A DNA stretch of 64,000 bases from Frigoriglobus tundricola. GTDB lineage: Bacteria > Planctomycetota > Planctomycetia > Gemmatales > Gemmataceae. Shown piece after piece: positions 38,208 through 54,933 of this stretch. The stretch spans positions 7,812,001-7,876,000 of the forward strand of contig NZ_CP053452.2 in assembly GCF_013128195.2 (NCBI RefSeq). Direction: 5' to 3'. The notes under the pieces are model-generated. The model was not told the DNA's origin. It made no database searches and saw only the letters and a list, made by a program, of their open reading frames with translations. Position 1 is the stretch's first letter. Each line of letters opens with the position of its first letter. Position numbers and translations under genes: made by a program.

Positions 38208-39509
38208 ATGGCAAAGGAGAATTTCGCGCGGACCAAGCCGCACGTCAACGTCGGGACCATCGGTCACATTGACCACGGCAAGACGACGACGACGGCCGCG
38301 ATCATGGCCCGCAACGCGCACTTGAACAAGCTCAAGGAGTTCAAGACCTACTCGGAAATCGCGAAGGGCGGCATCGTCCGTGACGCGAACAAGACGGTGA
38401 CCATCGCCGTCTCGCACGTCGAGTACGAGTCCAACGACCGCACCTACGCCAACGCCGGCGCGCTGCCTTACAAGGACCTGCTCGACTACCCCGGGCTCGA
38501 CAAGATCGACTTCAGCCAGACGATCAAGGGCCGGCACTACGCCCACATCGACTGCCCCGGCCACGCCGACTACATCAAGAACATGATCACCGGCGCCGCC
38601 CAGATGGACGCCGCCATCCTCGTCGTCGCCGCCGACGACGGCCCCATGCCGCAGACCCGCGAGCACATCCTGCTCGCCAAGCAGGTCGGCGTGCCGAACA
38701 TCGTCGTGTACCTGAACAAGTGCGACAAGGCCGACCCCGAGCTGATCCCGCTCGTCGTGATGGAGCTCCGCGACCTGCTCAGCAAGTACGACTTCAAGGG
38801 CGATGACATTCCCATCGTCTACGGCCGGTCGAAGGAAGCGCTCGAGAACCCGACCACGGACAACCCCGGGTCGCTGTCCGTCGACGCCCTGATGTTCGCG
38901 CTCGACACTTTCATCCCGCTGCCGGTTCGCGAAGAGGACCGGCCGCTGCTGATGTCGGTCGAAGACGTGTTCTCGATCAAGGGCCGTGGCACCGTGGCGA
39001 CCGGCCGCGTCGAGCGCGGTACCGCCCGGGTCGGCGACGAAGTCGAGATCATCGGGCTGCGGAAGGACAACGTCAAGACGGTCATCACCGGCCTCGAAAT
39101 GTTCCAGAAGACGCTGGACAAGGCCATCGCGGGTGACAACGTCGGCGCGCTCCTCCGCGGGATCGAACGTGACGGCATCGAGCGCGGCCAGGTCATCGCG
39201 AAGCCGGGCAGCATCACCCCGCACACCAAGTTCGAGGCCAACATCTACGTGTTGTCCAAGGACGAGGGCGGCCGCCACACGCCGTTCTTCAGCAAGTACA
39301 AGCCGCAGTTCTACTTCCGCACGACCGACGTGACCGGCTCGATCACCCTGCCCGACGGGGTGGAAATGTGCATGCCCGGTGACAACGTCAAGATCACGGT
39401 GGACCTGATGGAAGGGATGCCGGTCGCTATGGACGAAGGGCTCCGCTTCGCCATCCGCGAAGGCGGCAAGACTGTCGGCTCCGGCGTCGTGACGAAGATT
39501 CTGGTCTGA
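38208..39509 (+). CDS. tuf: Elongation factor Tu with atypical switch I and an insertion
   Basis: GTPase delivering aminoacyl-tRNA to the ribosome. 433 aa against about 394 in E. coli. The P loop (GHIDHGKT), DCPGHADY and NKCD motifs are intact, as are domains 2 and 3 to the C-terminus ([14 protein letters not shown]). Two oddities: the near-universal EKARGITI of switch I is replaced by DANKTVTI (residues 59-66, Thr of the Mg-binding position kept), and about 32 extra residues (about 75-108, [16 protein letters not shown] included) sit between VEYE and HYAHIDCPG. The G5 SAL motif is also changed (GRSKEALE). No frameshift, so these look real. Preceded by four tRNAs in E. coli tufB-like order; a clear terminator follows. 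Confidence 0.95.
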
Positions 39510-39659
39510 GTCGGAAGAATACGGTTGCCAGCAGTCGGCGAATAGTGGCCCCGGTGGCCAGTTAGCAACGAACGAGAAGGGCTGTGTGTGCTGTCCTTCT
39601 CTGACTGATAACTGGCTGCGAGTCGCACGGAGCTGACGGTCGGCGACGGGCAACTGTCC

Positions 39660-39711
39660 ACGACCGCAGCTCAACGGTCGAGCAGCGGTGTCCAAAACGG
39701 TTCAATCACGA
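39660..39711 (+). pseudogene. tRNA-Trp-like remnant just after tuf
   Basis: Positions 39660-39696 match the first 37 bases of the intact tRNA-Trp at 55938 in 32 places by eye: acceptor 5' strand, D arm (GCTCAACGG), anticodon stem and loop with CCA (GTCCAAA). After it about 12 bases are missing, then TTCAATC resembles the T loop. It lacks a T stem and 3' acceptor strand, so it cannot fold as a tRNA. Its site after tuf is where trnW stands in many bacteria. Confidence 0.7.
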
Positions 39712-39745
39712 GAAACCCCCGAAAATTCGGGGGTTTCTTCATTTT
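39712..39745 (+). terminator. Intrinsic terminator of the tuf transcript
   Basis: Nine-bp stem GAAACCCCC (39712-39720) with GGGGGTTTC (39729-39737), extended inward by GAA/TTC, followed by TTCATTTT. It directly follows the tRNA-Trp-like remnant. Confidence 0.85.
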
Positions 39746-39931
39746 ACCTGACACCAGTTGCCCCCGTCCGACCGCTGATAGCGGCTGTCAGACGCCGACG
39801 GGGCGGTGCGTTGGAGTCGGCACCATGCACGAGATTGAGCCGCTGAAGTTGAAGCCGCACAGCGGATTGCCTTTGACCCACGGCCCGTTTGCAGCGATCA
39901 TTTTTTCGTTCGCCTCCTACAGGGGTTCGTT

Positions 39932-40645
39932 ATGATCCGCGCAGCGACTGTTCTCGCGTCACTGTCGGTCGCCGCGGCGTTCGCCGCACCCGTCCCGCCG
40001 CCGACCGAGAAGGAGCGGTTCGCGAAAGAGTGGGGGAAGACCTATGGCGCTAGCGAGTTCGAGCTGAGGGGCAAGCAACTCATGGTGCGGACGACGACCG
40101 GCAAGCCCACCGTAGACCAGTGGCAGGATGAGGTCGTCGGCGAGCCGCGCACCGCACTCGTTGTTAAGGGCGAGTTCGAGATCACTGTGCGGGTTCTGGA
40201 CGTCGTGCCGCCGCGGAAAGACGCGAAGAACGTCGGGGTGGTGACGACGTTCGCCGGCTTGTACCTCGAAGGCCCCGCTTTCCGAATCAACGGCTTCGTC
40301 CATCAGTTCTACGATCTGCCCATCGGCGCCGAGTCCGAGCTGAAGCGCTGCCTGAGGATAAGCGGCACCGTGCCCGGCCTCGGGTTAGATGAGGTCCTGC
40401 CGGAGGCCGAAAGGGGCCAAGCGAGCTTTCTTCGTATGCACCGCAAAGGTAACCTACTCACGATGTCGAACAGTATTGACGGCAAGAAGTGGACGGAGCC
40501 CAAGAACCCGTTTGCCGGTCACGAGGTGGAGATTCCCGACGCACTCCGGGCCGGCGTCTTCTTCGGTCACTCGACCAGTCAGTTCGGGCACGCCACGTTC
40601 GACAGGTTCACGGTCGAAAAGCCGATGGGCGAAAAGGCAAAGTGA
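39932..40645 (+). CDS. Secreted protein, DUF1349/concanavalin-like fold suspected
   Basis: 237 aa with a signal peptide (IRAATVLASLSVAAAFA, then APVPPP). The body is beta-rich: GEFEITVRVLDVVPP, TTFAGLYLEG, FLRMHRKGNLLTMSNSIDG, KKWTEP, LRAGVFFGHSTSQFGHATFD. The pattern 'exposed to measured light... SxDGKxW... GxFFxHST...xFDxF' resembles DUF1349/laminin-G-like domains of planctomycete secreted proteins. Function unknown. First gene of the segment between tuf and tRNA-Trp; preceded by 186 bases after the terminator with nothing recognised. Confidence 0.78.
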   Translation: MIRAATVLASLSVAAAFAAPVPPPTEKERFAKEWGKTYGASEFELRGKQLMVRTTTGKPTVDQWQDEVVGEPRTALVVKGEFEITVRVLDVVPPRKDAKNVGVVTTFAGLYLEGPAFRINGFVHQFYDLPIGAESELKRCLRISGTVPGLGLDEVLPEAERGQASFLRMHRKGNLLTMSNSIDGKKWTEPKNPFAGHEVEIPDALRAGVFFGHSTSQFGHATFDRFTVEKPMGEKAK

Positions 40646-40786
40646 AGCCGGCCGCGGCTTCCGCCTTGTGCCCGGCCGGCGCGGGCAGAGGTCGGCGTTG
40701 AGGGGGTGGCCCCCGGCACCCTCACCTTATCCCAAGATTGAGAAGTCTCGTCCCGGGTAGTCATACGGGATCGTATTGATCGGTAA
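40646..40786. other. Start of the 435-base gap before a DUF1559 gene
   Basis: No gene is supported between 40646 and 41080. The gap holds the second 113-bp inverted-repeat element; the segment from about 40765 already matches, inverted, the sequence flanking copy 1. Confidence 0.45.
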
Positions 40787-40899
40787 CCCTGGGACCGCGG
40801 GAGTCCCGCCCGCTTGCTACGCCCACGAAATCGCGCCGGCGTGCCTCGTATTGCGAATTGATCCGCAACGCAGCGGGCGGGACGCCCGCGGTCCCAGGG
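40787..40899. repeat. 113-bp element with terminal inverted repeats, copy 2
   Basis: Same length and ends as 27719-27831 but in opposite orientation; the interior (GCTTGCTACGCCCACGAA, GCCGGCGTGCCTCGTATTGCG) matches copy 1 with only scattered differences. Flanks are also related on both sides (GATCGGTAAC / GTTACCGATC), so the mobile or amplified unit may be about 150 bp. Confidence 0.85.
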
Positions 40900-41080
40900 T
40901 TACCGATCAACACGACTTAGTATCAGTCCTTACTTCTTCCGGTCAGTTACACTGACCGGAAGGGGCGGTATCGGTCGCCGTAGCCTTTTCAGCCGGTCAC
41001 GCGGTCTGACTGTTCATGGCGAAGGGGCCGCGGCAGTGGCAACACGACAATGCCGCAGGGATTTCACGACACGACTTGCG

Positions 41081-42082
41081 TCACTGGGCCGGGACCACTT
41101 CACCGCCGTTCCGGGTGCTGAGGATCTCCAGCATTGCGAGCGGGGTCGTGACGGGCAGGAAGCGGATGCTGCCGTCGGTCATCGCGACGTTCACACCACC
41201 CGTGTGGTAGCTCCCGTAGGCACCGAGCCGCGCCCACCACAGATCGCTCAGCGGCCCCCAGGGGACCGGAGGGGCGGGGGGCGGCGGGAGCCCGAACCCG
41301 GGTGATGTCGGCGGTATCCAGGGTACCGGCATCACCCAGTTAATCGGGGCCTGGGCGCTCATCAGCCCGCCGGCGGCGTTTTCGTTCAAGGGCGGGGCCC
41401 AGACGCAGTAGGCCAACTCGGACTGGACACCCGGGTTTGATGGGGCGGGTGAGAGCGGGGCGTTGAGGTACGAGTCGAGTGCGCCGTCCCCGACAATACG
41501 CTCACCGAACAGGATCGTGTTACTCGTCCCGTCGGTTACGCTCAACAGGGTTGTGGGCGATTGGTTGGCCCGTGGTTGTGACCCGGGTCCGATCGTCGAA
41601 AACATCCCGTCCATTGTGGCCTGCGCCGGTGGGAACGTCTTCGTTCCACCGTTCCCGCCGTAGGTGGTCAGGGCGACCGGCCCCGCCGGCGCCGGGATCG
41701 GGTTCGGGCTGAGCGGGTGGCTCGGGCAGGTGTACACCGAAATCACCACCCCGGCCCGCGCGTTCGTCCCCGCGAAGTTCGCGGCCGGGTTGTTGAAGTC
41801 CCACTGCGCATAAAGCGGCGACTGCTCGATGAAGGGCAGCAGTTCCACGAACAGGCTGGTGTACCGCGTCAGCCCCAGGTCCACCCCGCCGGGGAAGTGG
41901 TCGTAGGTGTCGTGGTAGGAGTGGGCCGCGAGGCCGAGTTGTTTGAGGTTATTGGTACACTTGGCCCGGGATGCGGCTTCGCGGACCTTTTGAACGGCCG
42001 GTAACAGCAACCCGACCAGAATCGCGATAATCGCGATCACCACCAACAGTTCAATCAGCGTATAGGCCGTACGGGAACGCAT
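41081..42082 (-). CDS. DUF1559 prepilin-like protein
   Basis: 333 aa. ATG 42082 is chosen because GGGAGGG lies 5 bases upstream and the prepilin motif follows ([19 protein letters not shown], then VREAASRAKCTNNLKQLGLA). It ends with the family signature VNVAMTDGSIRFLP and NGGEVVPAQ. The interior has a proline-rich stretch (LPPPPAPPVPWGPL). Unlike the copy at 15671, the residue before the processed Phe/Tyr position is Ala rather than Gly (TAYTLIE), which might alter prepilin peptidase cleavage. Function unknown. Confidence 0.9.
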   Translation of the reverse strand: MRSRTAYTLIELLVVIAIIAILVGLLLPAVQKVREAASRAKCTNNLKQLGLAAHSYHDTYDHFPGGVDLGLTRYTSLFVELLPFIEQSPLYAQWDFNNPAANFAGTNARAGVVISVYTCPSHPLSPNPIPAPAGPVALTTYGGNGGTKTFPPAQATMDGMFSTIGPGSQPRANQSPTTLLSVTDGTSNTILFGERIVGDGALDSYLNAPLSPAPSNPGVQSELAYCVWAPPLNENAAGGLMSAQAPINWVMPVPWIPPTSPGFGLPPPPAPPVPWGPLSDLWWARLGAYGSYHTGGVNVAMTDGSIRFLPVTTPLAMLEILSTRNGGEVVPAQ

Positions 42083-42473
42083 GCGAGCCCTCCCGGCGGT
42101 CAAGCGTCGGAGTTCCGTCATCTTCCAGAACCGGCGGTCGCATGTCCACGCTGAACCTTCCCATTCTGAAGGAACCGACCGACCCGGACCCTCCAGTCCG
42201 GCGCCCCGGAACGTTGGACGGCGAACGAACACGCCCGGGAGCGGTGAGCCTTCGGGTCTGACTCACACATCCCGCACGCTTCAGTCAACGACCGCGACGC
42301 GCGGACCGACCCGTATGAGGGACTCTTGCGGCAGAACAAGAAGGCAAGGATGCACTGGTGCTCCCGGAACGAGTCCGGGAACGTCGGCAACCCGGCGACA
42401 GTCTCGGCACGGACGTTGATCGGACCGGGCTAGCCGGCGTTGGACCAGTACGGCGTCACACCCCGACCTGTGG

Positions 42474-42770
42474 GTGTCGGCGCTGGGATTCGGTCCGCCC
42501 CCGCTCGCTATTGGTGACTCGTCATGGGACGGCGCGGGCAACCGGGGAACGGTCCGCGTCGGCGCGGCGCTGGGCGTGTTCGCGCGGGGGATGCTCGCGG
42601 AGATGGACGTCGCGCTCGGCGAGTGGTTCGCAGTCGCACCCCGCGCGCTGGCCGCGTGGTCGATCGAGCGGGTCCGCACGATAAACGTTCCCGGCCTCTC
42701 GTTCGTGATGGCGCGCATCGAACAGGGCTGGCCCAGCACCGGAAGATGCGGCGTCGGAACGTGCCACTGA
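42474..42770 (+). CDS. Uncertain coding remnant
   Basis: A 98-aa frame with strongly GC-biased third positions (TVRVGAALGVFARGMLAEMD, LGEWFAVAPRALAAW). A second coding-like stretch in another frame follows (about 42750-42990: GDVALADAAGAVLTQFSAD, EARVRGAAHECALIVDDL). Together they look like one or two decayed genes rather than an intact one. No family recognised and no convincing start. The rest of the 42083-43154 gap shows nothing else. Confidence 0.3.
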   Translation: MSALGFGPPPLAIGDSSWDGAGNRGTVRVGAALGVFARGMLAEMDVALGEWFAVAPRALAAWSIERVRTINVPGLSFVMARIEQGWPSTGRCGVGTCH

Positions 42771-43154
42771 CCGGGGGTGACGTCGCGCTCGCCGACGCCG
42801 CCGGTGCGGTACTCACTCAGTTCTCTGCCGACCGGGCCGCCGACCAGTCCTTCGTGGACTGCGAGGCGCGGGTTCGCGGGGCCGCACACGAATGCGCCTT
42901 GATCGTGGACGACCTGAAGGACGCGGCCGGGGGGCCGTGGCCGCGGCCGCCCCGATGCCCGACGGCGAAGCCGACGGCTCCTTGACCGGCACGCGTTCCT
43001 CTGCTCCAATCCCTTCATGCTCGCCCTGCGAGCTCATCTGGCCCTGCATTCCGCGTTCCTGTGGTCGCGGTCTTCGTCCTCAGGTTCAGGCGGCGTTCGC
43101 CACCGTGCGGGTGCCCCGCGGTCCACGTGTGGCCATCCCCTGAGGACTCGACCC

Positions 43155-46100
43155 GTGCGCACCACGTTCGTGTTCGGTTTGCTCGTTGCTCTCCTCCCGG
43201 CACCCGCACCCGCGGTCGAACCGGCACCTCGCTATAAGGCCGGGGCGGCGAAAACCGAAATCACTCCGGCCCACCCGATCCGGCTCAACGGGTTCGGTTC
43301 GCGCCGCACCGAATCGGAAGGGGTCTATCACCCGATTCACGCCCGCGCGCTCGCGCTCGACGACGGCACCGCGCCCGCGGTGCTGCTCGCGGTCGATGTC
43401 CTCGGCATCCCGGCCGACAGCTACGACGAACTCGCCCGCCGCTTGGAGAAGCGAGCGGGCGTTAAGAAGGAGCGGCTCGCGATCACCGCGACGCACACCC
43501 ACACCGGTCCGATGCTCACCGGCGCGAACCCCACGCTGTTCGGCGTGCCCGTCCCAAAGGAGCACCGCGCGAACATCGACAAGTACACGCCGGTGTTCAT
43601 CGACAAGCTCGAAGCGGTCGCACTCGCGGCGCTCAAGGAGATGAAACCGGCGGTATTCGAATGGGGCGTCGGGCGGGTCGGCTTCGCGACGAACCGGCGC
43701 ACGAAGGGCGGCCCGACCGATCACGACCTGCCGGTGCTGTTCGTGAAGGACCTCAAGGGCGCGGTGCGGGCGGTTTATCTGAACTACGCGTGTCACTGCG
43801 TCACCCTCTCGAGCAATCAGCTCGGCGGCGACTGGGCCGGGTTCGCAGCCAGCGGGATCGAGGACACCTTCCCCGGCGCGGTCGCGCTGGTCGCGATCGG
43901 GGGCGGCGGGGACCAGAACCCGAGTTCCGGGGTCGCGGGGGCGAAAGAGGACCTTGCGGCCGCGCAGGGGCGCGAGATCGCGGCCGAGGTGCGCCGGCTG
44001 TCGCGGCACTACCTCGCACCGGTCACGGGCGCGATGACCGCGAAGGTCACGCCCCTCGACCTGCCCCTCGCGGACCTCCCCACGAAAGCCCAGTGGGAGG
44101 AGAAGGCGAACCGCATGGACGCGATCGGCCACCACGCCCGCGTCACGCTGGCCAAGCTCGCCGCGGGCGAGAAGCTCCCGACGAAGGTCGCGTACCCGGT
44201 GCAAACCTGGGCCTTCGGCGACGCGCTCGCGATGGTTCACCTGCCCGGCGAAGTGGTGGTCGATTACCCACTGCGGTTGAAGAAGGACCTCGACGGCCGA
44301 CGGCTGTGGGTGACCGGCTACGCGAACAACGCCCCGTGCTACATCCCGAGCGAGCGCGTGCTGAAGGAGGGCGGCTACGAGGGCGGCGGGGCGATGATCT
44401 ACTACGACCTCCCGGCCCCGCTCGCCCCGGGGCTCGAAGACAAAATCGTCGGCGCGGTGAAGGAACAGATCGGCAAGCCGTTCGCAGCAACGTTCGACCC
44501 GAACAAGACCGGCGGCACGCTCCCCCTGTCTCCGCAGCAGTCGCACGCGGCCATCAAGACGAAGCCGGGCCTGCGGGTCGATCTGGTCGCGGCCGAGCCC
44601 CTCGTCGCCGACCCGGTCGCGCTCGCGTTCGGCCCGGACGGCAAACTGTGGGTCGCGGAGATGGCGGATTACCCCAGCGGCCAGCGCGGGGCGTTCGAGC
44701 CGGGCGGGCGGATCGTGTTCCTCGAAGACACCAACGGCGACGGCACCTTCGATAAGCGCACCGTGTTCCTCGACGGCCTGCCGTTCCCCACGGGCGTGCT
44801 GCCCTGGCGGAAGGGCGTGCTCGTGTGCGCGGCCCCCGACGTTCTGTACGCCGAGGACACCAACGGTGACGGCACGGCCGACACGGTCACGAAGCTCTAC
44901 AGCGGCTTCGGCACGGACAACTACCAGGGGCGCGTGAACAGCCTCCAGTACGGCCTCGATGGCTGGGTGTACGGGTCGTGCGGCCTCTTCGGCGGGGAGA
45001 TCCTCTGTCACCGCACACGGGCGACGGTCGCACTCGGCGACCGCGACTTTCGCATCAAGCCGGACACGGGCGAACTCGAACCCGCGACCGGGCGCACGCA
45101 GCAGGGGCGCGTCCGCGACGACCGCGGAAACTGGTTCGGCTGCGACAACAGCACCCTTCTGCGGCACTACGTGCTCGACGACCACTACCTGAAGCGCAAC
45201 CCGCACGTCGCGTACCCCAACGCGTCGGTGAACGTGGCACCGTCCAACCAGCTCTTCTCGCTGAAGCGCGACGCGCAGCGGTTCGCGCTCTCCGGCCCGC
45301 CGAACACCGTGACGGCGGCGTGCGGCCTCGGCATCTATCGCGACGACCTCCTGGGCGCGGAGTTTTACGGCAACGCGTTCACCTGCGAGCCCGTGAACCT
45401 GCTCGTCACGCGGCGGGTTCTTAAACCGACCGGGTCGACGTTCACCGGCGGCCGCGCCCCGGACGAAACGACCAGCGAGTTCCTCGCCTCGACGGACGGC
45501 TGGTTCCGGCCGGTTCATGCGGTCACCGGACCGGACGGCGGCTTGTGGGTCGCGGACATGTACCGTTATCTGATCGAGCACCCGCGCTGGATCCCGCCCG
45601 CGGACCTCGCGCGGATCGATGTGCGGGCCGGGGCGGGGCTGGGGCGCATCTACCGCGTGCGGCCGGCGGACACGCCGCTCCGCCCGTGGGCGCGGCTCGA
45701 CCGGCTCGACACCGCGGGGCTGGTCGCGGCGCTGGACAGCCCGAACGGCTGGCAACGCGACACCGCGATGATGATGCTGGTCTGGAAGAACGACCCGGCC
45801 GCGAAGGGGCGGTTGGAGAAGCTGGTGCGCGAGTCGAAGAACCACCTCGCGCGGATGCAAGCGCTGTGTACGCTGGGCGGGCTGGGGGACGTGTCGCCCG
45901 ATTTGTTGAGCCGGGCACTCTCGGACACCGAGGCGGGCGTCCGCCGGCACGCCATCCGGTTATTGGAGTCGCGCGCCCCGGGCGCGCCCGGGGAAGACCC
46001 CGTGGGGATATCCGAATGGAACCGGCGCGACAGTGACACGGACCCGCAGGTCTGGTTACAGTTCGCTTACTCCCTCGGGGCGGCGCGCCCGAGGGACGAT

Positions 46101-47834
46101 CTCCGCGGCCTCAAACTCGCATCGGTGATGTTCCGATCGGCGGACGACCCGTATCTCGTCGCCGCCGCGCTAAGTAGTTTGAACAAGGACAACGTCCGCG
46201 CGGTGGTCGAGGGTGTTTGGCGGCTGTTCGAGATCGACAAGTCCTTCGATCCGCGCCCACAGATCATGCGCGACTTTGTCGCCTCCGCGGCGGGCATCGA
46301 CAACGGTGCGGCCCTGCCCGACGTGCTCAAGGCCGTGACGACGCTCCCGCCCGAGCGCGCGTTCCAGCCCTGGCAACTCGCGGGCGTGCTCGGCGCGCTC
46401 GATTCGCTCGAGCGCCAAGGGAGGTCGTGGGACAAGCTCGCGCCGGAGGTACGCAAGTCGGTGGACCCGGTGATCGCGCACGCGCGAAGCGTCTGTGCGA
46501 AAGAGAACGTGGGCGGAGCCGACCTGCTCACGGCAATGCCGCTGCTGGGGCGCGACCCGGCCACGCGGGCCGGTGATCTGGAGCGGGTCGTGGGCCTGCT
46601 CGATGCGGCCCGCCCGGCCGCGGTCCAGTCGGCCGCGATCGCGGTACTCGCCCGGGGTACCGACGCCGGGACGCCGTCCGCGCTCCTCGGCGCGTGGGGG
46701 CGTGCGACACCGGCTCTTCGCGCGCAGATCCTCGACACGCTGCTCAGCCGCCCGAAGTGGCACCCGGATCTGCTCGCGGCTATCGAAAAAGGTACGGTGC
46801 CCGCGGGGCAGATCGACGCGGCCCGCCGGCAGCGGCTCACCGGTTCCCCCGAGGCCGGGGTGCGCAGACTGGCGGTGAAACTGTTCGCGGGTGGGAACAA
46901 CCCGGACCGGCAGAAGGTCATCGACGACTACAAGGCCGCGCTCGCACTGAAGGGCGACAAGGGCCGCGGGAAGGCGGTGTTTCTGAAGTCCTGCTCCGCG
47001 TGCCACGCGCTCGACGGCACCGGTCACGCCGTCGGCCCGGACCTCGCGGCGCTGGCCAACAAGTCACCGCTGTACCTGCTCACCGAAATTCTCGACCCGA
47101 ACCGCAACCTCGACTCGCGCTACGCCGAGTACCAGGCGCTCACCAAGGACGACCGCACGGTGAGCGGCCTCCTCGCGGCCGAGACCGCGACGAGCATCAC
47201 GCTCCGCGGCCAGCAGGCGAAGGAAGAAACGATTCTCCGGACGTTTATTCAAGCGCTGCGCGGCTCGGCGAAGTCACTCATGCCGGAGGGGCTGGAGAAG
47301 GACGTCACGAAGCCGGACATGGCCGACCTGATCGCGTACCTCACCGCGCACGACCCGCCCCACAAGACGTTCGCGGGCAACGCCCCGGCGGAAATCGAGA
47401 TGAAAGCCGGCACCCTGACGCTCCCCGCCACGAAGTGCTTCGTGTACGGCGATGCGGTCCGCTTCGAACCGGATTTTAAGAACATCGGCTTCTGGCACCG
47501 GGAGGCGGACCACGTCGTGTGGAAGGTGAAACTGGGGACGGCCGCGGAGTTCGACGTGTACCTCGAGTACGCGTGTGCGAACGGCTCCGCCGGCAACCCG
47601 TTCGCACTCGACGGAACGGAACCGGCGCTGCGCGGAACGGTCGCGGCCACCGGCGGCTGGGACAAGTACGCCCTGCAGAAGCTCGGCACGGTGAAGCTGC
47701 CCGCCGGAGCGGGGCGCGTCACGTTCCGGCCGGACGCCCCGGTGAAAAATGCCCTGCTGGATCTTCGCGCGTTGATCCTCGTCCCGGTCGGCACCAAGCC
47801 GGATGTCGCCGCCCCGGCTGACCCGCCGCGGTGA
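43155..47834 (+). CDS. Neutral ceramidase-like domain fused to a PVC dehydrogenase / cytochrome c protein
   Basis: 1559 aa from GTG 43155 (TGAGGA site 6 bases upstream) with a signal peptide (TTFVFGLLVALLPAPAPA). Part 1 (about 25-450) resembles neutral/alkaline ceramidases: AAKTEITPAHPIRLNGF, ITATHTHTGPMLTG, YACHCVTLSSN, GGGGDQNPSSG. Part 2 (about 470-900) is the PVC membrane-bound dehydrogenase/glucose-sorbosone-like propeller (GLRVDLVAAEPLVADPVALA, FLEDTNGDGTFDKRT, WVADMYRYLIEHPRWIP). Then HEAT-like helices, a PVC-type haem domain with Cys1280-Ser-Ala-Cys1283-His1284 (CSACHALDGTGHAVGPDLA), and a C-terminal beta domain (about 1410-1559) like a carbohydrate-binding module. Probably periplasmic and able to bind one c-type haem. 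Substrates unknown. Confidence 0.88.
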   Translation: MRTTFVFGLLVALLPAPAPAVEPAPRYKAGAAKTEITPAHPIRLNGFGSRRTESEGVYHPIHARALALDDGTAPAVLLAVDVLGIPADSYDELARRLEKRAGVKKERLAITATHTHTGPMLTGANPTLFGVPVPKEHRANIDKYTPVFIDKLEAVALAALKEMKPAVFEWGVGRVGFATNRRTKGGPTDHDLPVLFVKDLKGAVRAVYLNYACHCVTLSSNQLGGDWAGFAASGIEDTFPGAVALVAIGGGGDQNPSSGVAGAKEDLAAAQGREIAAEVRRLSRHYLAPVTGAMTAKVTPLDLPLADLPTKAQWEEKANRMDAIGHHARVTLAKLAAGEKLPTKVAYPVQTWAFGDALAMVHLPGEVVVDYPLRLKKDLDGRRLWVTGYANNAPCYIPSERVLKEGGYEGGGAMIYYDLPAPLAPGLEDKIVGAVKEQIGKPFAATFDPNKTGGTLPLSPQQSHAAIKTKPGLRVDLVAAEPLVADPVALAFGPDGKLWVAEMADYPSGQRGAFEPGGRIVFLEDTNGDGTFDKRTVFLDGLPFPTGVLPWRKGVLVCAAPDVLYAEDTNGDGTADTVTKLYSGFGTDNYQGRVNSLQYGLDGWVYGSCGLFGGEILCHRTRATVALGDRDFRIKPDTGELEPATGRTQQGRVRDDRGNWFGCDNSTLLRHYVLDDHYLKRNPHVAYPNASVNVAPSNQLFSLKRDAQRFALSGPPNTVTAACGLGIYRDDLLGAEFYGNAFTCEPVNLLVTRRVLKPTGSTFTGGRAPDETTSEFLASTDGWFRPVHAVTGPDGGLWVADMYRYLIEHPRWIPPADLARIDVRAGAGLGRIYRVRPADTPLRPWARLDRLDTAGLVAALDSPNGWQRDTAMMMLVWKNDPAAKGRLEKLVRESKNHLARMQALCTLGGLGDVSPDLLSRALSDTEAGVRRHAIRLLESRAPGAPGEDPVGISEWNRRDSDTDPQVWLQFAYSLGAARPRDDLRGLKLASVMFRSADDPYLVAAALSSLNKDNVRAVVEGVWRLFEIDKSFDPRPQIMRDFVASAAGIDNGAALPDVLKAVTTLPPERAFQPWQLAGVLGALDSLERQGRSWDKLAPEVRKSVDPVIAHARSVCAKENVGGADLLTAMPLLGRDPATRAGDLERVVGLLDAARPAAVQSAAIAVLARGTDAGTPSALLGAWGRATPALRAQILDTLLSRPKWHPDLLAAIEKGTVPAGQIDAARRQRLTGSPEAGVRRLAVKLFAGGNNPDRQKVIDDYKAALALKGDKGRGKAVFLKSCSACHALDGTGHAVGPDLAALANKSPLYLLTEILDPNRNLDSRYAEYQALTKDDRTVSGLLAAETATSITLRGQQAKEETILRTFIQALRGSAKSLMPEGLEKDVTKPDMADLIAYLTAHDPPHKTFAGNAPAEIEMKAGTLTLPATKCFVYGDAVRFEPDFKNIGFWHREADHVVWKVKLGTAAEFDVYLEYACANGSAGNPFALDGTEPALRGTVAATGGWDKYALQKLGTVKLPAGAGRVTFRPDAPVKNALLDLRALILVPVGTKPDVAAPADPPR

Positions 47835-47907
47835 CCAGCGGACCCCGCGAGACTTCGCCTCGACGATTCGCCGCCGAACGATTGCCGTCAAGGCGGGAGC
47901 CGAGTCT

Positions 47908-48110
47908 TCAGATGTCGTCGGGTTGGGCGGGCAGGACCGGGCGGCCTTCGCCCGTCGCCTCGCGCCACCATTTGCCGAACACCAGGCCCATGACCCGGAA
48001 CCCGCGGACTTGCGGCCCCCGGCCCGCGGCAGTGGTCGAGGACGCCTACGTTGTCGCAGCCGGCATCCTCAAGGGTGCCGGCCATGATCGGCATCGCGGA
48101 GAAGTCGCTG
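47908..48110 (-). pseudogene. Truncated, frameshifted remnant of the PILxDALxDAGC family
   Basis: Reads MPIMAGTLEDAGCDN, then VLDHCRGPG, then shifts frame at a run of five G (48016-48020 on the plus strand) and continues PQVRG, VMGLVFGKWWREA to a TGA at 47908. It matches the C-terminal third of the protein encoded at 34941-35627 (MPILVDALQDAGCDS). The first two thirds are absent. The rest of the 47835-48201 gap has no gene. Confidence 0.7.
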
Positions 48111-48758
48111 CACTCGTCCGTCTGCGAAGCGAGCGGGACGGCGGTTGTGGTGCCCGGGCAGGGAGAGAATGTGACCGGGATTGCGACACGACCGGTCGTC
48201 GTTACTTCGGCGGAGCTTTGGGCTGGAGCCGCGAGCCGGAAATCTTACACCTCGGTAGCGCCTTCTGGAGTTCGTTCACGCCGGCTTGTGTTGCCTTTGT
48301 GCGGAACAGGTTGAGTTCTGCCAGGTTCTTGAGGGCGGCCAGTTCTTTCAACCCTTCGTCCGTAAGGTCGTTATTGCTCAAGGACAGTGTTGTGAGCTTG
48401 GTGAGCGCGGCCAATTCTTTCAGGCCCGCGTCCGACATCTTGGTGCTATCCAGGTGAAGCGTGGTCAGGTTCTTGAGCGCGGCCAGTGACGCCGCTCCCT
48501 TGACCGTTATCCCCGCCACGCCGCTCAGGTAGAGGTCCGTAAGGGCCTCGAACCGAGCAAGTTCTTCCAGCCCCGCGTCTGTCGTTTGGGTCCCGTTCAG
48601 GGCGAGTTGAGTGAGTTTCTTAAGCGGGGCGAGCTGCTTTATTCCCGCGTCCGTAACCGCCGTTCCGCTCAGATAGAGTCGGGTCAGACCGGTGTGCGCG
48701 GCCACGTACTTCATCCCCTCGTCCGTCACCTTGGTCCCGCGGAGATCGAGTTCTATTA

Positions 48759-49911
48759 CTTCGGCAAGGAAGTTGCTCAAAACTAGACGAGTCCACATTG
48801 AGGCCCTGATGGGTCTTGCCATCGTCCGATAGGTTGCTGTGTCATGGCGATCACCTTGCCGGATTCTCGTGGGCTGTCCGACGACGTCATGCAGGCGTTG
48901 CGCGTGCGCGCGTTGCACGCGATCGAGTCCGGGTTCTCGCAAGCCGATGTGGCCCGCGTGCTGGGTGTGGCGGGTGAAACGGTGTCGCGTTGGTGGACGG
49001 CGTACACGACCGGCGGGTTGGACGCCCTGCCCCAGGATCGCACCGGGCGCCCGGTCGGAACCGGGCGCACCCTTTCCGACACACAGTGTGCTCATCTGCA
49101 ACAGCTCCTGGACACAAAGAGCCCGGCGGATCTGGGGATCGCCGCGCCGGTGTGGAACCGTCGCGCGGTTCGCGATCTGATCCTCAAGGAGTACGGGCTC
49201 CGGATGCCGATCCGCACCGTGGGGGAATACCTGCGGCGCTGGGGCTACACGGCCAAGAAGCCGTCCCGCCACGCCCGCAAACAAGACCCCGACGAAGTGC
49301 GGGAGTGGCTCGAGCAGACGTACCCGGCCATTGAGAAGCTGGCCCGGGTGGAACGGGCCACCATCTTCTGGTGCGATGAAACGGGGGTCGCCGCCGACGC
49401 GTATCCCGGTTACGGGTACGCCCGCGCGGGCGAACGGGCGACGATCCAGGTTCCCGATCCGCACATCCGGATCAACATGGTGTCCGGGATCAGCAACACG
49501 GGCGAGGTGCGGTTCATGACGTACGCGGGGACGATGACCGCCGAACGGTTCATCGCGTTCCTGAAGCAGCTGCTGGCGACCGTGCCGGGCGCGATCTTTG
49601 TGATCGTGGATAGCTTGTCGGCCCACACCACGGAGACGGTCGCCACGTGGGTACAAGAGCATGAGGAACGCGTGGCCGTGTTTTATCTGCCCCGGTACAG
49701 CCCCGAATTGAACCCCGACGAATATCTCAACAACGACCTGAAGGGGAACGTGCATGACGCCGGCTTGCCCGACACCAGCAAGACCTTGCGATCGCGCGTC
49801 CAACGCTTCATGCACAAGCTCCTCATGCTCCCCAAACACGTGATGAGCTACTTCCTCCACCCCAAGATCAGCTATTGCTCATCAGATTAATGACAATCTT
49901 GTTTGCCGAGG
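48759..49911 (+). mobile_element. IS630-type insertion sequence
   Basis: 1153 bp flanked by the TA target duplication typical of IS630/Tc1 elements (48757-48758 and 49912-49913). Ends are imperfect inverted repeats: CTTCGGCAAGGAAG at the left against the complement of the right end CTTGTTTGCCGAGG. It carries one transposase gene and sits inside the leucine-rich-repeat gene. Confidence 0.88.
48844..49890 (+). CDS. IS630 family transposase
   Basis: 348 aa in one frame, apparently intact. The N-terminal helix-turn-helix (SGFSQADVARVLGVAGETVS, WWTAYTTGGLDAL) is followed by a winkled-helix linker (RMPIRTVGEYLRRWGYTAKK) and a DDE nuclease domain with FWCDETGV, FVIVDSLSAH and YSPELNPDEYLN. The last acidic residue is in NPDEY, where the family often has NPIE; the general position is kept. 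Since the ends and gene are whole, the element could still be active. Confidence 0.93.
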   Translation: MAITLPDSRGLSDDVMQALRVRALHAIESGFSQADVARVLGVAGETVSRWWTAYTTGGLDALPQDRTGRPVGTGRTLSDTQCAHLQQLLDTKSPADLGIAAPVWNRRAVRDLILKEYGLRMPIRTVGEYLRRWGYTAKKPSRHARKQDPDEVREWLEQTYPAIEKLARVERATIFWCDETGVAADAYPGYGYARAGERATIQVPDPHIRINMVSGISNTGEVRFMTYAGTMTAERFIAFLKQLLATVPGAIFVIVDSLSAHTTETVATWVQEHEERVAVFYLPRYSPELNPDEYLNNDLKGNVHDAGLPDTSKTLRSRVQRFMHKLLMLPKHVMSYFLHPKISYCSSD

Positions 49912-50322
49912 TAATACGAGGCCCTTGGTCGCGCCGAACTCTTTCATCCCCGCGTCCGTCACCAGGGTGTGAGCGAGGTGGAGGCGCTGGAGCTTCGGGA
50001 GCGCGGCGAGTTCCTTCAACCCCGCGTCCGTCACCTTTGTGCGGTAGAGGTCGAGTCGAACGAGCTTCTTGAAGGCCGCGAGTTCTTTCAGCTCCGAGTC
50101 GGGAATTTTCGAGTCGAGCAGACGCACTTCCACGACCGGACCCTGCGGTTTGTTACCCTCGCGGGTGACGGTCCCACCCCACTTCTTCACGACCGCGACG
50201 GCCTTCTCCTCGTCGGCCCGCACCTCGATCGCCGAAATCAGGATGAACCACACGGCCGCTCCGCCCGACACGCGCAACATGAAGTGCTCCCCGCAGTGTG
50301 AGTCGTGAGTCGAACCTGTCAC

Positions 50323-50350
50323 AGCATGACCGATCCGGCGTTAGACGCAA
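50323..50350 (-). promoter_or_regulatory. Candidate promoter of the leucine-rich-repeat gene
   Basis: On the minus strand TTGCGT (50350-50345), 16 bases, CATGCT (50328-50323), 42 bases before the start. The motif and part of the spacer (CGCCGGATC) recur before the membrane protein gene at 51406-51433. Confidence 0.45.
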
Positions 50351-50368
50351 GCCCCGCTAAAAGGGAAC

Positions 50369-50393
50369 GGGCCGGGGAATCATTCCCCGGCCC
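50369..50393. terminator. GC-rich hairpin
   Basis: GGGCCGGGGAAT (50369-50380) pairs with ATTCCCCGGCCC (50382-50393), a perfect 12-bp stem with a one-base centre. It may end a minus-strand transcript arriving from 50849, or simply be a palindrome. The remaining gap 50394-50848 contains only a weak minus-strand frame (50514-50762, LTTEADAALVARDGREPGAR) that I do not support as a gene. Confidence 0.5.
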
Positions 50394-50848
50394 CTGTCGA
50401 TGAGCGGTGCCGGCCGGCTCGCGCCTTGTGCCCGACCCGCTTCGCAGGCGCGCTTCAGTCCGGTGGGCCGCGGGCCGGTCCCGGGTCTTCGAGGTCCGCG
50501 ACCCGGCGCATCCTCACCCGCGTCGGCCGCCCCATAACAGAACCGGCGCGCCGCGCCGTTCGACCCGTTCGAGCAACCGCCTCGCACCCGGTTCGCGTCC
50601 GTCCCGCGCCACCAGCGCCGCGTCCGCTTCGGTCGTCAGGTCCACGTCCCCGCGCTCCTCGGCGTCACCGGGGGACCGGCGGTAGTCCGGCACGAACGGG
50701 GTCACGGTCGGCCCGCGGGTCCTGGCGCAGCGGGCCACGAGCGCTGGGTACATCCCGGACACTTATGAGGCAGTAACATTTTGACGTTTTCAGATCCCAA
50801 GCGTGGGTTCCGGGTGTGCGGTGTTGAAGCGGCGAGGTGGTCTGAGAG

Positions 50849-51382
50849 TCACAAGTCGAGTGCCGCGGCGACGGCGATCAGTGCGCCGGTGACGGATGCC
50901 GTGACAAACAGGCCGACAGTGTAGTGGATGAAGGCGACCAGTGCCGCGCGTCGGATCGTCACAGGCAGAGCCAGAGCCAGAAGCGGTGTCAGACCGGCGA
51001 AACCGAACAGTATGCTGAATACCGCGATCCCCACCCGTGTCCACCTGTCGTTCACGTCGGCCAAGTTGCCCAAGTCGAGGAGCAGTAATAGACCGAAGAA
51101 CGCGCCGGCTTCGAGAAACGCGGCCAGGAACGCGATTACTAGTGCGGTGCCGCAGCCCGGCGTCGGGATCGCCCGCTCATCCTCGTTACTGTGCGGGGCG
51201 ACCGGTTCCCAGTGGTCGTCACCATGCCAGTCCGCTGCGGCCGAATCGGCTGGCCATTCCTTTACCGGATCGAGCACTCGGTTGGCGACCGCGACTGCCG
51301 CGCGCACGAGAAAAGCGCCGACCAACAACTCGACCGACACGCCCGCACAACAGAGTGCGCCCACTAACTGGCCGATTCCCAT
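50849..51382 (-). CDS. Small integral membrane protein, unknown function
   Basis: 177 aa with four predicted helices (about residues 5-35, 82-105, 118-140, 146-175) separated by a polar loop (ADSAAADWHGDDHWEP). No family recognised. Codon use is coding-like and a promoter-like motif lies 23 bases upstream of ATG 51382. The neighbours give no clue. Confidence 0.65.
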   Translation of the reverse strand: MGIGQLVGALCCAGVSVELLVGAFLVRAAVAVANRVLDPVKEWPADSAAADWHGDDHWEPVAPHSNEDERAIPTPGCGTALVIAFLAAFLEAGAFFGLLLLLDLGNLADVNDRWTRVGIAVFSILFGFAGLTPLLALALPVTIRRAALVAFIHYTVGLFVTASVTGALIAVAAALDL

Positions 51383-51405
51383 CGTTCACCCCCGGAAACC
51401 GCTCC

Positions 51406-51433
51406 AGCATGCCTGATCCGGCGGCGGACGCAA
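51406..51433 (-). promoter_or_regulatory. Candidate promoter of the membrane protein gene
   Basis: TTGCGT (51433-51428), 16 bases, CATGCT (51411-51406) on the minus strand, with the spacer element CGCCGGATC shared with 50323-50350. Two independent occurrences at similar distances from start codons make a promoter or operator role plausible. Confidence 0.45.
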
Positions 51434-51597
51434 GCCCTCCCCCGAACGCGAAAACCTCGCCAGGCGGGCGTAGTGGGAAGGTGGTGGTCGGTACCGGGTC
51501 AGCGCTTGCGGGAAGCCGCTCAGATTCACGCGGCCGGGTCAAGGATCTGCGGCCCCTCGTTCTTCGGGCTGTTCACCAGCGGGTCCGTTGCCACGGA

Positions 51598-53481
51598 TCA
51601 CTTCACTCGCGGTTTAAGGATGTCCCCCAGTACGTCCGGCGTGGATGGCACGCGCTCCAGTTCCAGGTAACGCAGTCCGTCTGAGTAGGGTACCACGATC
51701 GTGCGGAAGTCCTCTCCGTCTTCGACCAGCAGTTCGACCTTCTTGCGGGAAACACTGTCGGCGATCGCGTCCCGCAGCCGGTTCGGGCTGAACCTCTTGC
51801 CGTTAACGCCGATCACCTTCATGCCCGGTGCCAGTCCCGCCTTGTCCGCCGGCAGCCCGGGGTCCACTGTCGTCACCACCCCTCCGGGCAGCGACAGACC
51901 GAGGGAGTCCGCGGCGGGGTTCTCCGGCGGCACGCCCAACTGCCCCGCCCCGGGCAACTTGTCGGCGTATTTGAGCCGGTAGCCGAGCCGCCCCACCACC
52001 TCCAGCGGGAGCGCCTCCTGCGGCGCGGTCACCCGCCGGCGCAAGAACGCCTCCCAGTCGTAATCGGCCGTCGCCTTCAGGTCTCGCACCACGTCGGCGA
52101 GGTCGTACCCGGCCACCGCCTTCTGGCCCGGCACGGCGGCGAAGAACCGCTTGCAAAAGTCGTCGAGCGACCTGGCCCCGTCGGTCTTCTCGCGGATCAG
52201 GGCGTCGCACTCGTACCAGAGCAGCATTCCCTCCATGTAGAAGTCCTGCCCCCGCCGCAACTGGTTCCACGAGTTGCCGGGGTTGCGGCCGAGGTGGGCG
52301 GCAACGGCGGTGTCTTCGAGTGGTCGCCACCGCCGACCGTCGGTCCGGGACAGCGTGCGGATCTTGTTGGTGAGCGTCAACTTGTACTCGTCCGGGGTGA
52401 GCAGCCCGGCCCGCACCGAGAGCACCTCGCCCAGGTACTCGGTCAGTCCCTCGTAGACCCATAGCAGCTTGGTCTTCTGCGGGGCGTGGAAGTCCGCCGT
52501 GATCATGGCCGCCGGTCGGCGGTACTTGCCGCACCAGGAGTGGGCGTATTCGTGCGGCAGCAGGTTCGCCAGCCACCACCCCTTGCGGAGCTTCTCGTCG
52601 ATGAGCCCCCGCTCGCCGACCCCGTTGAGGCTGCACGCCAGGTGCTCCAGCCCGAACTGGCCGAGTGCGTCGCTGCACACCACCAGGAAGTGGTACTCCG
52701 GGTAGTGGGCGCCGCCGAACAGTGCCCACGCCTCCCGCACCACCCGCGAGTACAGGCCCACCTCCTTCGGGTCCAGGTTCAGCGCCTCGGGTGACTCGGA
52801 CGTCAGGTGCAGGAACGCGGGCGGCCCGGAGCCGGCGTCGAGCTTGAACGTCTTCAGATGCCGGCCGGCGATGAGGGGGTTGTCCACGAGGGCGGTGAGG
52901 GACACGGTGCGGAAGGCGATGGCGTCGCCCTGCCCCTTCTTCTCGTGCGCCTTTAGGGCGGTAGCGTGCTTCCAGCCGTCCGGCAGCCGCAACCGAACGC
53001 TCACCGGTTGGTCGTCGGCCGCCGGTCCTTCCGGGTAGACCAGGCACGTGTTCCAGTTGATGACGCCGAGGTCCGGGGTGCCGACCGTGTGGGTGCCGGA
53101 CCGGTTCGGTCCGGCCGACTCGCAGACGGTGTCCAGCTTCACCCGGAGCTTCTCCGTGCCGTCCGGGACCTGGACCACGAAGCGGTGCAAATCCACCTCG
53201 TCGCGAGTCCAGGGCAGGACGGCGCCGGCAGCGGTCTCCACCCGGAGCCCGGCGATGTCCTCGACCCGCCCGTGAGGGCCGTGCGAGCCGGGGAACCACT
53301 TGGGGTACAGAAGCCGCAGCGGGCCGGGCTTGCAGGGGATGTCGAGTGTGGCGTGGATGAGGTGCCGCGGGAGTTCGCGGGCGTCCACCTCAAGGGCCAG
53401 ACCCGCCGCGTCGGCTCCCGTCGCCGGGCCGACTACGATGCACAGAGCCGCGGCAGCGGCAACGGAGCGAGCAAGCGACAT
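51598..53481 (-). CDS. M61 family glycyl-aminopeptidase-like metalloprotease with PDZ domain
   Basis: 627 aa with a signal peptide (SLARSVAAAAALCIVVGPATG). The N-terminal beta domain contains KWFPGSHGPHGRVEDIAGL, typical of M61. The zinc site is LLPHEYAHSWCGKYRRP (HExxH) with the third ligand in WVYEGLTEYLGEVL. A C-terminal PDZ domain follows (GVVTTVDPGLPADKAGLAPG, VIGVNGKRF). These are periplasmic aminopeptidases related to DegP-type PDZ-regulated proteases in layout. Length is typical. No partner gene nearby; 116-215 base gaps on either side show nothing else. Confidence 0.9.
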   Translation of the reverse strand: MSLARSVAAAAALCIVVGPATGADAAGLALEVDARELPRHLIHATLDIPCKPGPLRLLYPKWFPGSHGPHGRVEDIAGLRVETAAGAVLPWTRDEVDLHRFVVQVPDGTEKLRVKLDTVCESAGPNRSGTHTVGTPDLGVINWNTCLVYPEGPAADDQPVSVRLRLPDGWKHATALKAHEKKGQGDAIAFRTVSLTALVDNPLIAGRHLKTFKLDAGSGPPAFLHLTSESPEALNLDPKEVGLYSRVVREAWALFGGAHYPEYHFLVVCSDALGQFGLEHLACSLNGVGERGLIDEKLRKGWWLANLLPHEYAHSWCGKYRRPAAMITADFHAPQKTKLLWVYEGLTEYLGEVLSVRAGLLTPDEYKLTLTNKIRTLSRTDGRRWRPLEDTAVAAHLGRNPGNSWNQLRRGQDFYMEGMLLWYECDALIREKTDGARSLDDFCKRFFAAVPGQKAVAGYDLADVVRDLKATADYDWEAFLRRRVTAPQEALPLEVVGRLGYRLKYADKLPGAGQLGVPPENPAADSLGLSLPGGVVTTVDPGLPADKAGLAPGMKVIGVNGKRFSPNRLRDAIADSVSRKKVELLVEDGEDFRTIVVPYSDGLRYLELERVPSTPDVLGDILKPRVK

Positions 53482-53872
53482 AACGGTGTGACCCGAGTGG
53501 GTGGAATTCCTGTTTCGGCCCTCGTGCCGAGGCGGTCTCGGCGTCGGCCTCTGGGTGCGAGCCGGTCAAAGCGTTGTTCCCACCGGTCCGGCATTATGCC
53601 GGTAGACTATCCGATCCGATGCCCGCTTCAAGCGGGTGCACCCGGTTGACGAGCGGCGGTTCGATTCGGAAGACTGGGAACGCCGCGAGGAGCACATCCC
53701 ACTCACCGGGGACGTGCTCCTCGCCGGAATAGGGGGCGGCTCGTTGGAAGCACCGTCGGCTCGCCCGGCGGACCGCCTCGTTGGGAAATAAGGTAGGTTG
53801 TCGATAGTCCGCGGAGCCCGTGGACCGCGGTGCCCTCGTGCAAGTACCCGTGAATCCCGGAGCCGGTCCCTC
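53482..53872. other. Divergent region between the M61 and STAS genes
   Basis: 390 bases without a supported gene. Minus-strand frames through it are arginine-rich and unlike any family. Promoters for both neighbours should lie here, but none is clear. Confidence 0.4.
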
Positions 53873-54235
53873 ATGAATCACCCCCCACAGTTCAACGCGG
53901 CCCTCACGCTCGACCCGTCGGGCAAGGTGTGTGTCGTCGTCGCGACCGGCAAGCTCGATATGGTCGCGGCCGACGAATTCGAGCCCCTTCTCGAGGGCCA
54001 GTTCAGAACCGGAACCCGCCACTTCGTGTTCGACCTCGGCGGGCTCGAATACATCGGCAGTCTCGGGCTCCAGGCGTTCCTCCGTCTCGCTAACCGGGTT
54101 CGGGGCGCGGGTGCGGTTGTCCTGTGCGATGTGGCCCCGCCGGTGCGCCGACTTCTGGAACTGACGAAGGTCACGCAGGTGCTCAAACTCTACCCCTCGC
54201 GTGCGGACGCGATCGACGCCGTTCGTTCCTTGTGA
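53873..54235 (+). CDS. STAS domain protein (anti-sigma factor antagonist-like)
   Basis: 120 aa. ATG 53873 is chosen because the STAS fold begins directly; the upstream in-frame extension is arginine-rich. Core: VCVVVATGKLDMVAADEFEP, HFVFDLGGLEYIGSLGLQAF, GAGAVVLCDVAPPVRRLLEL. The conserved serine that is phosphorylated in SpoIIAA-type proteins is present (IGSLGL, against the common ISSAGL). No anti-sigma kinase or sigma gene lies nearby, so the partner is encoded elsewhere. Confidence 0.85.
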   Translation: MNHPPQFNAALTLDPSGKVCVVVATGKLDMVAADEFEPLLEGQFRTGTRHFVFDLGGLEYIGSLGLQAFLRLANRVRGAGAVVLCDVAPPVRRLLELTKVTQVLKLYPSRADAIDAVRSL

Positions 54236-54426
54236 GGGAGGTCGCGCCTGGCCCTGAAGCCTTGTTCGTTGTCGCTGGGCGCCTGCAACAAATTGAAGTT
54301 CACGCGGGTGCGATCCGCTGGTGACCGCGGGTCGCCGGTACGCGCGTGGCGCAGCACGTCGTTCGCGCGCACGATGTCGTCCGGGTCCATCGCGCACCGC
54401 CCGTGAATGGAGCGGTTCGACCCGCG

Positions 54427-54723
54427 TTACGCGCGGCGCTCCGAGCCGGCGTCCGCCTCGATCGCGGCGACCTTGTAAAAGCCGGCCGTCTCGAACGGGC
54501 CGCCGCGGCTCACCTCCACGACCGCGTCGCCGCCGGCCGAGTTGTACACCACGAACGCGACATCGGCTCCCCCGCCGTGGCTATCCCGGTAATCCTTCTC
54601 GGCCCCGGCGACCGCCGCGCCCAGCGTCGGGTACTCGTCCGTCAGCGGGACGAACACCCGCAGCCGCAGTGCCGGATCCTCGATCCCCACATACGCGCCC
54701 ACGACGTACACCTTGTCGGCCAT
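54427..54723 (-). CDS. Hypothetical 98-aa protein
   Basis: Small acidic protein (VYVVGAYVGIEDPALRLRVF, DAVVEVSRGGPFETAGFYKV). AAGGAG stands 8 bases before ATG 54723, and third-position GC is high, so it looks translated. Family not recognised. Confidence 0.55.
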   Translation of the reverse strand: MADKVYVVGAYVGIEDPALRLRVFVPLTDEYPTLGAAVAGAEKDYRDSHGGGADVAFVVYNSAGGDAVVEVSRGGPFETAGFYKVAAIEADAGSERRA

Positions 54724-54933
54724 CTCGTTCGCTCCTTATGGTGCGCCGGTTCGGGACGTTGGCCCGAAGAGCGCCCCTGTCGTTGTACGGGAACACCGGC
54801 CACCTGCGCCCGCAGGGACGGACGGTAGTCAACGCGGTGACTGTTTCGGTCGGCGGGCCGCAGCGCCGCGGCCCGCCGACCCGGCGCGCCAGGGCCAAGA
54901 GCCCATGAGTAACTGATCGCCGAAAACGAACAA

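Follow-up and report, generated by a model that had tools for sequence, protein, structure and literature searches.

The window analyzed here, a single stretch of 64,000 nucleotides, belongs to a genome of 9.86 Mb in two contigs. In this window the tuf gene is followed, 151 nt past its stop codon, by a fragment resembling the 5' half of tRNA-Trp, and the intact tRNA-Trp gene lies 16.3 kb further on, ahead of secE and nusG. This separation agrees with the approximately 16 kb given by an earlier, sequence-only reading of the same DNA. The features of the locus are as follows.

38208-39509, plus strand: tuf (EF-Tu), left flank of the insertion; TIGR00485 611 bits (cut-off 522), Pfam EF-Tu domains
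39510-39659, plus strand: tuf–trnW spacer on the remnant side, recognized by position and folds; the relatives' version is a long hairpin adjoining tRNA-Trp
39660-39699, plus strand: displaced tRNA-Trp 5' half; 35/42 identical, 0/1000 shuffles, similarity to nt 1-42 reaching 39701
39700-55976, no strand assigned: inserted element of about 16.3 kb, absent between tuf and trnW in 17 relatives
39700-39800, plus strand: left (P') arm; hairpin at 39710-39739, then the conserved TGACACCAGTTGCCCC at 39749-39764, then degenerate repeats
48844-49890, plus strand: DDE_3 transposase (Pfam DDE_3, 5.6e-35)
55154-55787, minus strand: tyrosine integrase relic; two frames cover residues 1-72 and 74-209 of 400, and the catalytic part is missing
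55863-55882, plus strand: right (P) arm direct repeats with 12-nt spacing, at -74 and -62 from the tRNA; the exact pattern occurs once in the window
55938-56010, plus strand: restored tRNA-Trp(cca); ARAGORN, Rfam 71.1 bits
56011-56260, plus strand: ancestral 3' flank of tRNA-Trp, ahead of secE; blastn to 16/17 relatives, SecE ORF at 56250-57206

The element carries ORFs with Pfam matches that include DUF1559, DUF7133/cytochrome c, M61 peptidase and LRR domains; the DDE_3 transposase is probably a later passenger. Near-palindromic repeats surround gatcggtaaccctgggaccgcggg at 40720-40915. The EF-Tu encoded at 38208-39509 has an insertion of ~30 residues (residues about 78-108) ahead of the DCPGH motif. 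This insertion is common to the 17 same-genus homologs, and the homologs of other families align as blocks 1-78 and 108-432 only.

The tRNA-Trp 5' half and its ancestral site

EF-Tu homologues were sought in 30 relatives. In all 17 same-genus genomes with a tuf match an intact tRNA-Trp was found 104-154 nt after the tuf stop codon (an eighteenth, 65% complete, gave no tuf match and stands outside the comparison), and in 11 more distant loci it was found 64-527 nt past tuf. The sequence-only reading had placed the remnant at the ancestral position of tRNA-Trp and had proposed the orthologous site in relatives as the check; the comparison bore this out. The 3' flank of the intact gene was matched by blastn in 16 of the 17 relatives. 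Neither the 250 nt directly upstream of the intact gene nor the 230 nt that follow the remnant had a blastn match in any of them. The spacer between tuf and the remnant also failed to match the spacers of the 17 relatives by blastn, which counts against this reading; these spacers differ greatly among the relatives themselves and are fast-evolving in all.

In the 17 relatives the tuf–trnW spacer (103-153 nt) forms a long hairpin adjoining tRNA-Trp, with z < -3 in 13 of them, and the hairpin arms are species-specific short repeats whose pairing is preserved. In the window (39510-39659) the hairpin persists on the remnant side only, with z of -1.9.

An ungapped alignment of the remnant with the first 42 nt of the intact tRNA-Trp (55938-56010) gave 35 identities over 39660-39701 and mismatches at nt 5, 8, 20, 26, 31 and 40; the figure of 32 matches in 37 positions previously given is exact for nt 1-37. 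The Smith-Waterman score was 54, compared with a mean of 14.7 (sd 2.4) for 1000 first-order Markov shuffles of the 160-nt region, none of which reached 54. In a scan of 793 windows of 160 nt, from which those around the intact tRNA-Trp were omitted, this score was attained twice, by the remnant and by a window with a real tRNA-Thr(tgt). The match stops at the 3' side of the anticodon loop, in agreement with the earlier description of a similarity running through that loop, and the block common to the two copies most likely ends near nt 39-40. The span of 39660-39711 proposed earlier holds as tRNA-derived to 39701; 39702-39711 is non-tRNA and is the start of the element's own arm, homologous to that arm in other elements. 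A T-loop-like GGTTCAA after the remnant was considered as a T arm retained after a deletion, and this was rejected because the motif is the start of the element arm; the blocks in other elements likewise stop at nt 37-43.

The covariance-model check suggested with the sequence-only reading goes, as worded, against the remnant: the Rfam tRNA model was silent, with no RF00005 match by cmscan (E up to 10) within 39510-39935, and ARAGORN found no tRNA at the remnant. This was not taken as a refutation because no score is expected from half a tRNA that has only the D arm and an anticodon stem with mismatches. The permissive Rfam matches were to unrelated leaders and sRNAs on the terminator-like hairpin and were disregarded. 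At the level of sequence, 39660-39701 is confirmed as a real tRNA-Trp 5'-half remnant. As had been claimed, the T arm and the acceptor 3' strand are absent from the left copy, but their loss by erosion there is improbable. Given a crossover in the anticodon arm, they would have stayed at the right junction, and the left copy would never have been more than a 5' half.

The left arm of the element has homologues among those of sister elements (7/12 at E 3.8e-5 or better, blastn), and this, together with the empty site in the 17 relatives, supports the proposal that the remnant marks the left junction of an island. The arm contains a terminator-like hairpin of 13 bp at 39710-39739, and a terminator scan of 39500-39950 found one terminator, compared with 0.6 in shuffles. 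Such hairpins were found in 8 of 24 left arms; control windows taken within elements had them in 6 of 240 cases, and shuffles gave an expectation of 0.3 in 24. Since only 8 of the 24 arms have one, the hairpin marks a subgroup and is not a general feature.

At the right junction, the ancestral 3' flank and the integrase relic adjoining the intact gene agree with the earlier claim that the functional gene was rebuilt there. On the match of the 3' flank, nt 1 to about 39 of tRNA-Trp(cca) would have been brought by the element and nt 40-73 would be original. In 20 of 32 elements, direct repeats spaced by 11-13 nt lie near positions -75 and -63 relative to the tRNA; the motif set was picked after inspection, and the repeat sequence varies between elements. 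We infer that these repeats are putative integrase arm sites. The G+C content averages 37% in the last 25 nt before the restored tRNAs and 55% further upstream. No sigma-70 consensus stands out upstream of these tRNAs (best score 5.1, versus 4.4 in shuffles). In the window one sigma-70 match was found, at 55747-55774 within the integrase relic (shuffle mean 0.0), and none within 70 nt of tRNA-Trp. The window thus has an intact tRNA and a same-strand fragment bracketing the element, an integrase relic on board and absence of the element in 17/17 relatives, the features expected of a tRNA island.

The integrase family and its target tRNA genes

The two pieces of the relic are 62.5% and 58% identical (tblastn, E 1.7e-66) to an intact 400-aa sister integrase at 0.67 Mb of the same genome, and a match to PHROG 1 integrase (3.3e-7) supports this identity. 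The relic lies just 5' of the intact tRNA-Trp and divergent from it, its start facing the tRNA 5' end. The intact sister (L121/L043) matched Pfam Phage_integrase with 43.3 bits (cut-off 27.1), XerA (5hxy) at E 9.7e-13 and also a PHROG integrase. The family is therefore one of tyrosine recombinases by the catalytic-domain profile of the intact sister, of which the window relic keeps the N-terminal half only. No match to the integrase was found in the collections of phage and plasmid records.

The active site of the family was read by eye from a HMMER alignment of 15 members. An invariant Gly (G242 of L121) stands opposite Arg I of XerA and an invariant Tyr (Y341) opposite the second-box His, each in 15/15 members. 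K267, R344 and Y375 are invariant and H366 nearly so. The invariant R265, R272 and R273 are candidates for replacing Arg I.

The arrangement seen in the window recurs in most of the family. Three sets of loci, which overlap in part, were analyzed. In the genus set, 28 of 30 integrase loci face the 5' end of an opposite-strand tRNA at the integrase start; the remaining two (L051 and L055) each lie just beyond the displaced 5' half of a neighbouring target, and for this reason they were taken as tandem islands. In a wider set 41 of 42 loci, all but L137, have a divergent tRNA, whose 5' end lies at a distance of 41-242 nt from where the integrase is projected to start. Among 70 loci on GTDB genome contigs, 53 face a tRNA 5' end and two (L285 and L291) a 3' end; of the other 15, 11 have no tRNA within 500 nt and four have too little upstream sequence. 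The targets include Arg, Ser, Thr, SeC, Asp, Leu, Met, Val, Lys, Phe and Trp isoacceptors. The intact integrase was found at E 1e-40 in 29 of 95 genomes of the taxonomic family and in 6 of 392 genomes of a phylum sample, the window's genome included. The 5' geometry thus recurs in most members of the integrase family, across several planctomycete genera. Within the window's own genome, 35 places with a Pfam integrase were examined: ten face a tRNA 3' end within 1.3 kb and four face a 5' end, namely three members of the family and L237. The latter is not in the integrase family and faces a tRNA-like 5' end (a 30.9-bit match), which counts against a restriction of this geometry to the family.

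The other end of the operon, at tRNA-Thr(tgt) before Tyr-Gly-Thr-tuf, is also a target: family integrases were found 5' of this gene in genomes G002, G016, G007 and G008 (L016/L041, L003/L034, L002/L042 and L009/L059, respectively).

For 32 integrase–tRNA pairs, the window included, up to 80 kb on the integrase side was searched with the intact tRNA. A 5'-half copy was found in 23 of the pairs, starting at nt 1-3, ending at nt 37-43, on the same strand and 2.3-71.8 kb upstream. Intact sister elements measure, for example, 49.6 kb at Arg-cct of G000 and 12.7 kb at SeC. Most copies are 97-100% identical to the intact gene; that of the window is 86% identical and that of Thr(tgt) in G008 89% (34/38). 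Within the searched stretch of 80 kb or less, the remaining nine pairs lacked a 5'-half copy of the annotated tRNA. For one of them, G013 Ala, the target is a neighbouring tRNA, and the other eight had no copy at all: Arg-acg, Ser-cga, Arg-tcg and Val of G008, Val of G013, Thr of G002, Val of G010 and Ser of G011, the last on a short contig. By the same test no 3'-half fragments were found except for G013 Ala, where the 3' half of the neighbouring tRNA-Met lies 48 nt upstream.

As a control, the tRNAs of 16 pairs were searched against the stretches of other pairs, which gave 19 hits at E 1e-6; these were real tRNA genes, the remnants themselves or a few unannotated tRNA-like stretches. One of the tRNA-like stretches is a tRNA-Arg(acg) 3' fragment that lies beside a 3'-facing integrase, at 8.8 kb from the intact gene, indicating that the test detects the classical 3' kind as well. 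A classical 3'-fragment island of about 8.8 kb, with a 3'-facing integrase, lies at tRNA-Arg(acg) at about 8582.5-8591.4 kb of contig C1 of G000.

One locus bears on the point of exchange. Near 7699.9 kb of contig C1 of G013 (L052) a tRNA-Met was left unrepaired, with nt 26-76 intact on the right and nt 2-39 located 21.3 kb to the left. If this arose by a single conservative event, strands would have been exchanged between nt 26 and 39, in the anticodon arm, in agreement with where the 5'-half blocks end. Four insertions at Arg(cct) provide thin additional proof of empty sites: blastn similarity between their left flanks was found in one of six genome pairs (G008-G013).

Unintegrated forms were sought in IMG/VR, where 39 relatives of the integrase were found, five of them with an intact tRNA facing its 5' end. 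We examined 36 loci (25 viral, 11 genomic) with no intact tRNA and at least 200 nt upstream. In six of the 36 a tRNA 5' half of 38-40 nt lies at the expected place and strand beside the integrase: L325, L334, L337, L338 and L347 (5 of the 25 viral loci) and the genomic L321. L338 has, directly behind the 5' half, a 13-nt T-loop-like match. The other 30 have no 5' half; six of these have a 3'-half match in the same geometry, as in the unrepaired G013 case, and among the viral loci that lack a half, many share only some 30% identity with the integrase family. The 5'-half sites beside the integrase may be read as attP or as displaced attL. Half-tRNA sites of this kind are thus present at sister loci (6/36), the element of the window being itself fixed.

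Origin of the displaced fragment

Very probably, a tyrosine-integrase island inserted in tRNA-Trp between tuf and secE, and the fragment is what remains of its left attachment site. The remnant, the empty sites, the integrase relic, the homologous arm, the family-wide geometry and remnants, and the half-tRNA attP-like sites are all seen in the sequence and argue for this. The attP of the element would have carried the first ~39 nt of the tRNA, and the integrase would exchange strands in the anticodon arm, both the exchange point and catalysis by this integrase being presumed. The original 5' half, with the host upstream region, would then stay behind tuf on the left, and a whole gene would be rebuilt at the far end from the 5' half of the element and the 3' half of the host. 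By this route the host tRNA-Trp would have lost its own upstream region, now lie behind the right arm of the element, cut off from tuf, and probably have its promoter supplied by the element. Elements of this family thus appear to restore the tRNA 5' half and to replace the sequence upstream of the tRNA. The insertion is old, since the remnant has drifted at 5 of 39 sites and the integrase is without its catalytic part. The restored 5' half is identical to that of 11 of the 17 relatives over nt 1-39.

Planctomycete genomes rearrange, and the segment contains a DDE transposase; a second tRNA-Trp copy might have arisen next to tuf by ancestral or segmental duplication and then decayed, the 16 kb having arrived otherwise, for instance by transposition or rearrangement. 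We regard this as improbable, since two copies were found in none of the 17 relatives, the similarity of the remnant to the tRNA breaks off at the anticodon loop, where an arm with homologues in other elements takes over, the integrase relic adjoins the intact gene, and the same layout is seen at many other tRNAs. Still less probable is an ordinary 3'-restoring island that was turned round afterwards, either by inversion or because tRNA genes recombined homologously. The ten 3'-facing integrases within 1.3 kb of a tRNA show that integrases of that orientation are common in this genome, but the ancestral order and strand are kept at both junctions and the 5' geometry is found in most of the integrase family, in several planctomycete genera. 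A chance or functional resemblance, 39660-39711 being part of a tuf 3' leader or terminator structure, would suit the silent covariance model and the strong terminator-like hairpin into which the stretch runs, but it is hardly credible and is already refuted by the alignment score, reached by none of 1000 shuffles, and by a position that is the same as that of tRNA-Trp in 17 relatives.

Under the preferred reading, that of a left attachment-site remnant, the remnant taken alone is ordinary, and it is the family behind it that seems new. A bolder proposal, which we offer tentatively and hold to be rather unlikely, is that this integrase family, with its unusual active site, is specialised in replacing tRNA promoters. 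The attP would be a cassette of an element-borne upstream region, the tRNA 5' half and, in one subgroup, a terminator, from which the free element would make a short 5'-half RNA. Integration would put the host tRNA under the element upstream region, leaving the host promoter to make a terminated 5' half only, and the element would so control the host tRNA supply. If true, the supply controlled in this way would include single-copy or rare tRNAs, such as tRNA-Trp and tRNA-SeC. The family would offer naturally occurring replacements of the promoters of essential RNA genes, which makes it testable whether mobile elements take over the host tRNA supply. It also provides a rule for delimiting planctomycete islands and prophages: where an integrase is divergent from a tRNA 5' end, nt 1-39 of that tRNA should be looked for upstream.

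Comparison with known systems

Our literature search, in which few subscription papers were covered, found no paper that brings together Gemmata, an integrase, a genomic island and tRNA, nor, among the titles listed, any on planctomycete integrases of this kind. According to the available text of the Islander study, the displaced fragment is a 3' one in 3760 of 3919 islands and a 5' one in 159 (PMC4383910). The islands described there share with those analyzed here a tyrosine integrase, a split tRNA, a restored gene with a displaced fragment, tandem arrays and anticodon-centred crossovers, whereas here 5' fragments are left by one integrase family, in 23 of 32 pairs. In the IntDOT subgroup, as far as it is described in the part of the source available (PMC8138268), the first catalytic arginine is, like that of this family, away from the usual place. 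Another arginine substitutes for it in IntDOT; here there are candidates only and, in addition, a Tyr at the place of the usual second-box His.

The lysogeny described for mycobacteriophages as tRNA-dependent (PMC10865867, from the text accessible) also involves integration in a tRNA gene by a crossover in a short core, and the tRNA-Met of G013 is likewise not rebuilt; that phage carries a whole spare tRNA, whereas most of the elements described here rebuild the host gene. The G013 tRNA-Met case resembles this form of lysogeny, without a known spare gene. In the window itself tRNA-Trp is whole and ARAGORN found no other tRNA within 39700-55937, so that neither the unrebuilt gene nor the spare tRNA of that system is present.

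There is also a likeness to the pTN3-like integrases of Thermococcales, for which the accessible text reports that attP and attB have 41 bp of the tRNA 5' half in common and that the restored tRNA-Leu is parted from its original promoter (PMC8371274, PMC5495485). The pTN3 integrase is archaeal and its gene is split on integration; in the family studied here the gene is whole and divergent from the tRNA, and many isoacceptors are used. Use of the 5' half with a change of tRNA promoter is described in those sources as seldom met in bacteria (review; PMC8371274, PMC5495485). In Sinorhizobium meliloti, 9 of 88 integrated sequences had an attR that matched the 5' end of the tRNA, which was kept intact (PMC11476347); these were a minority among mixed integrases, and the available part of that report does not describe 5' integration as the property of a single family. 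The usual tRNA islands rebuild the 3' half, so that the gene stays under its own promoter, whereas this family does the opposite at many isoacceptors. Insertion that restores the 5' half is thus known but rare, and the apparent novelty lies in a family of bacterial integrases dedicated to the 5' mode.
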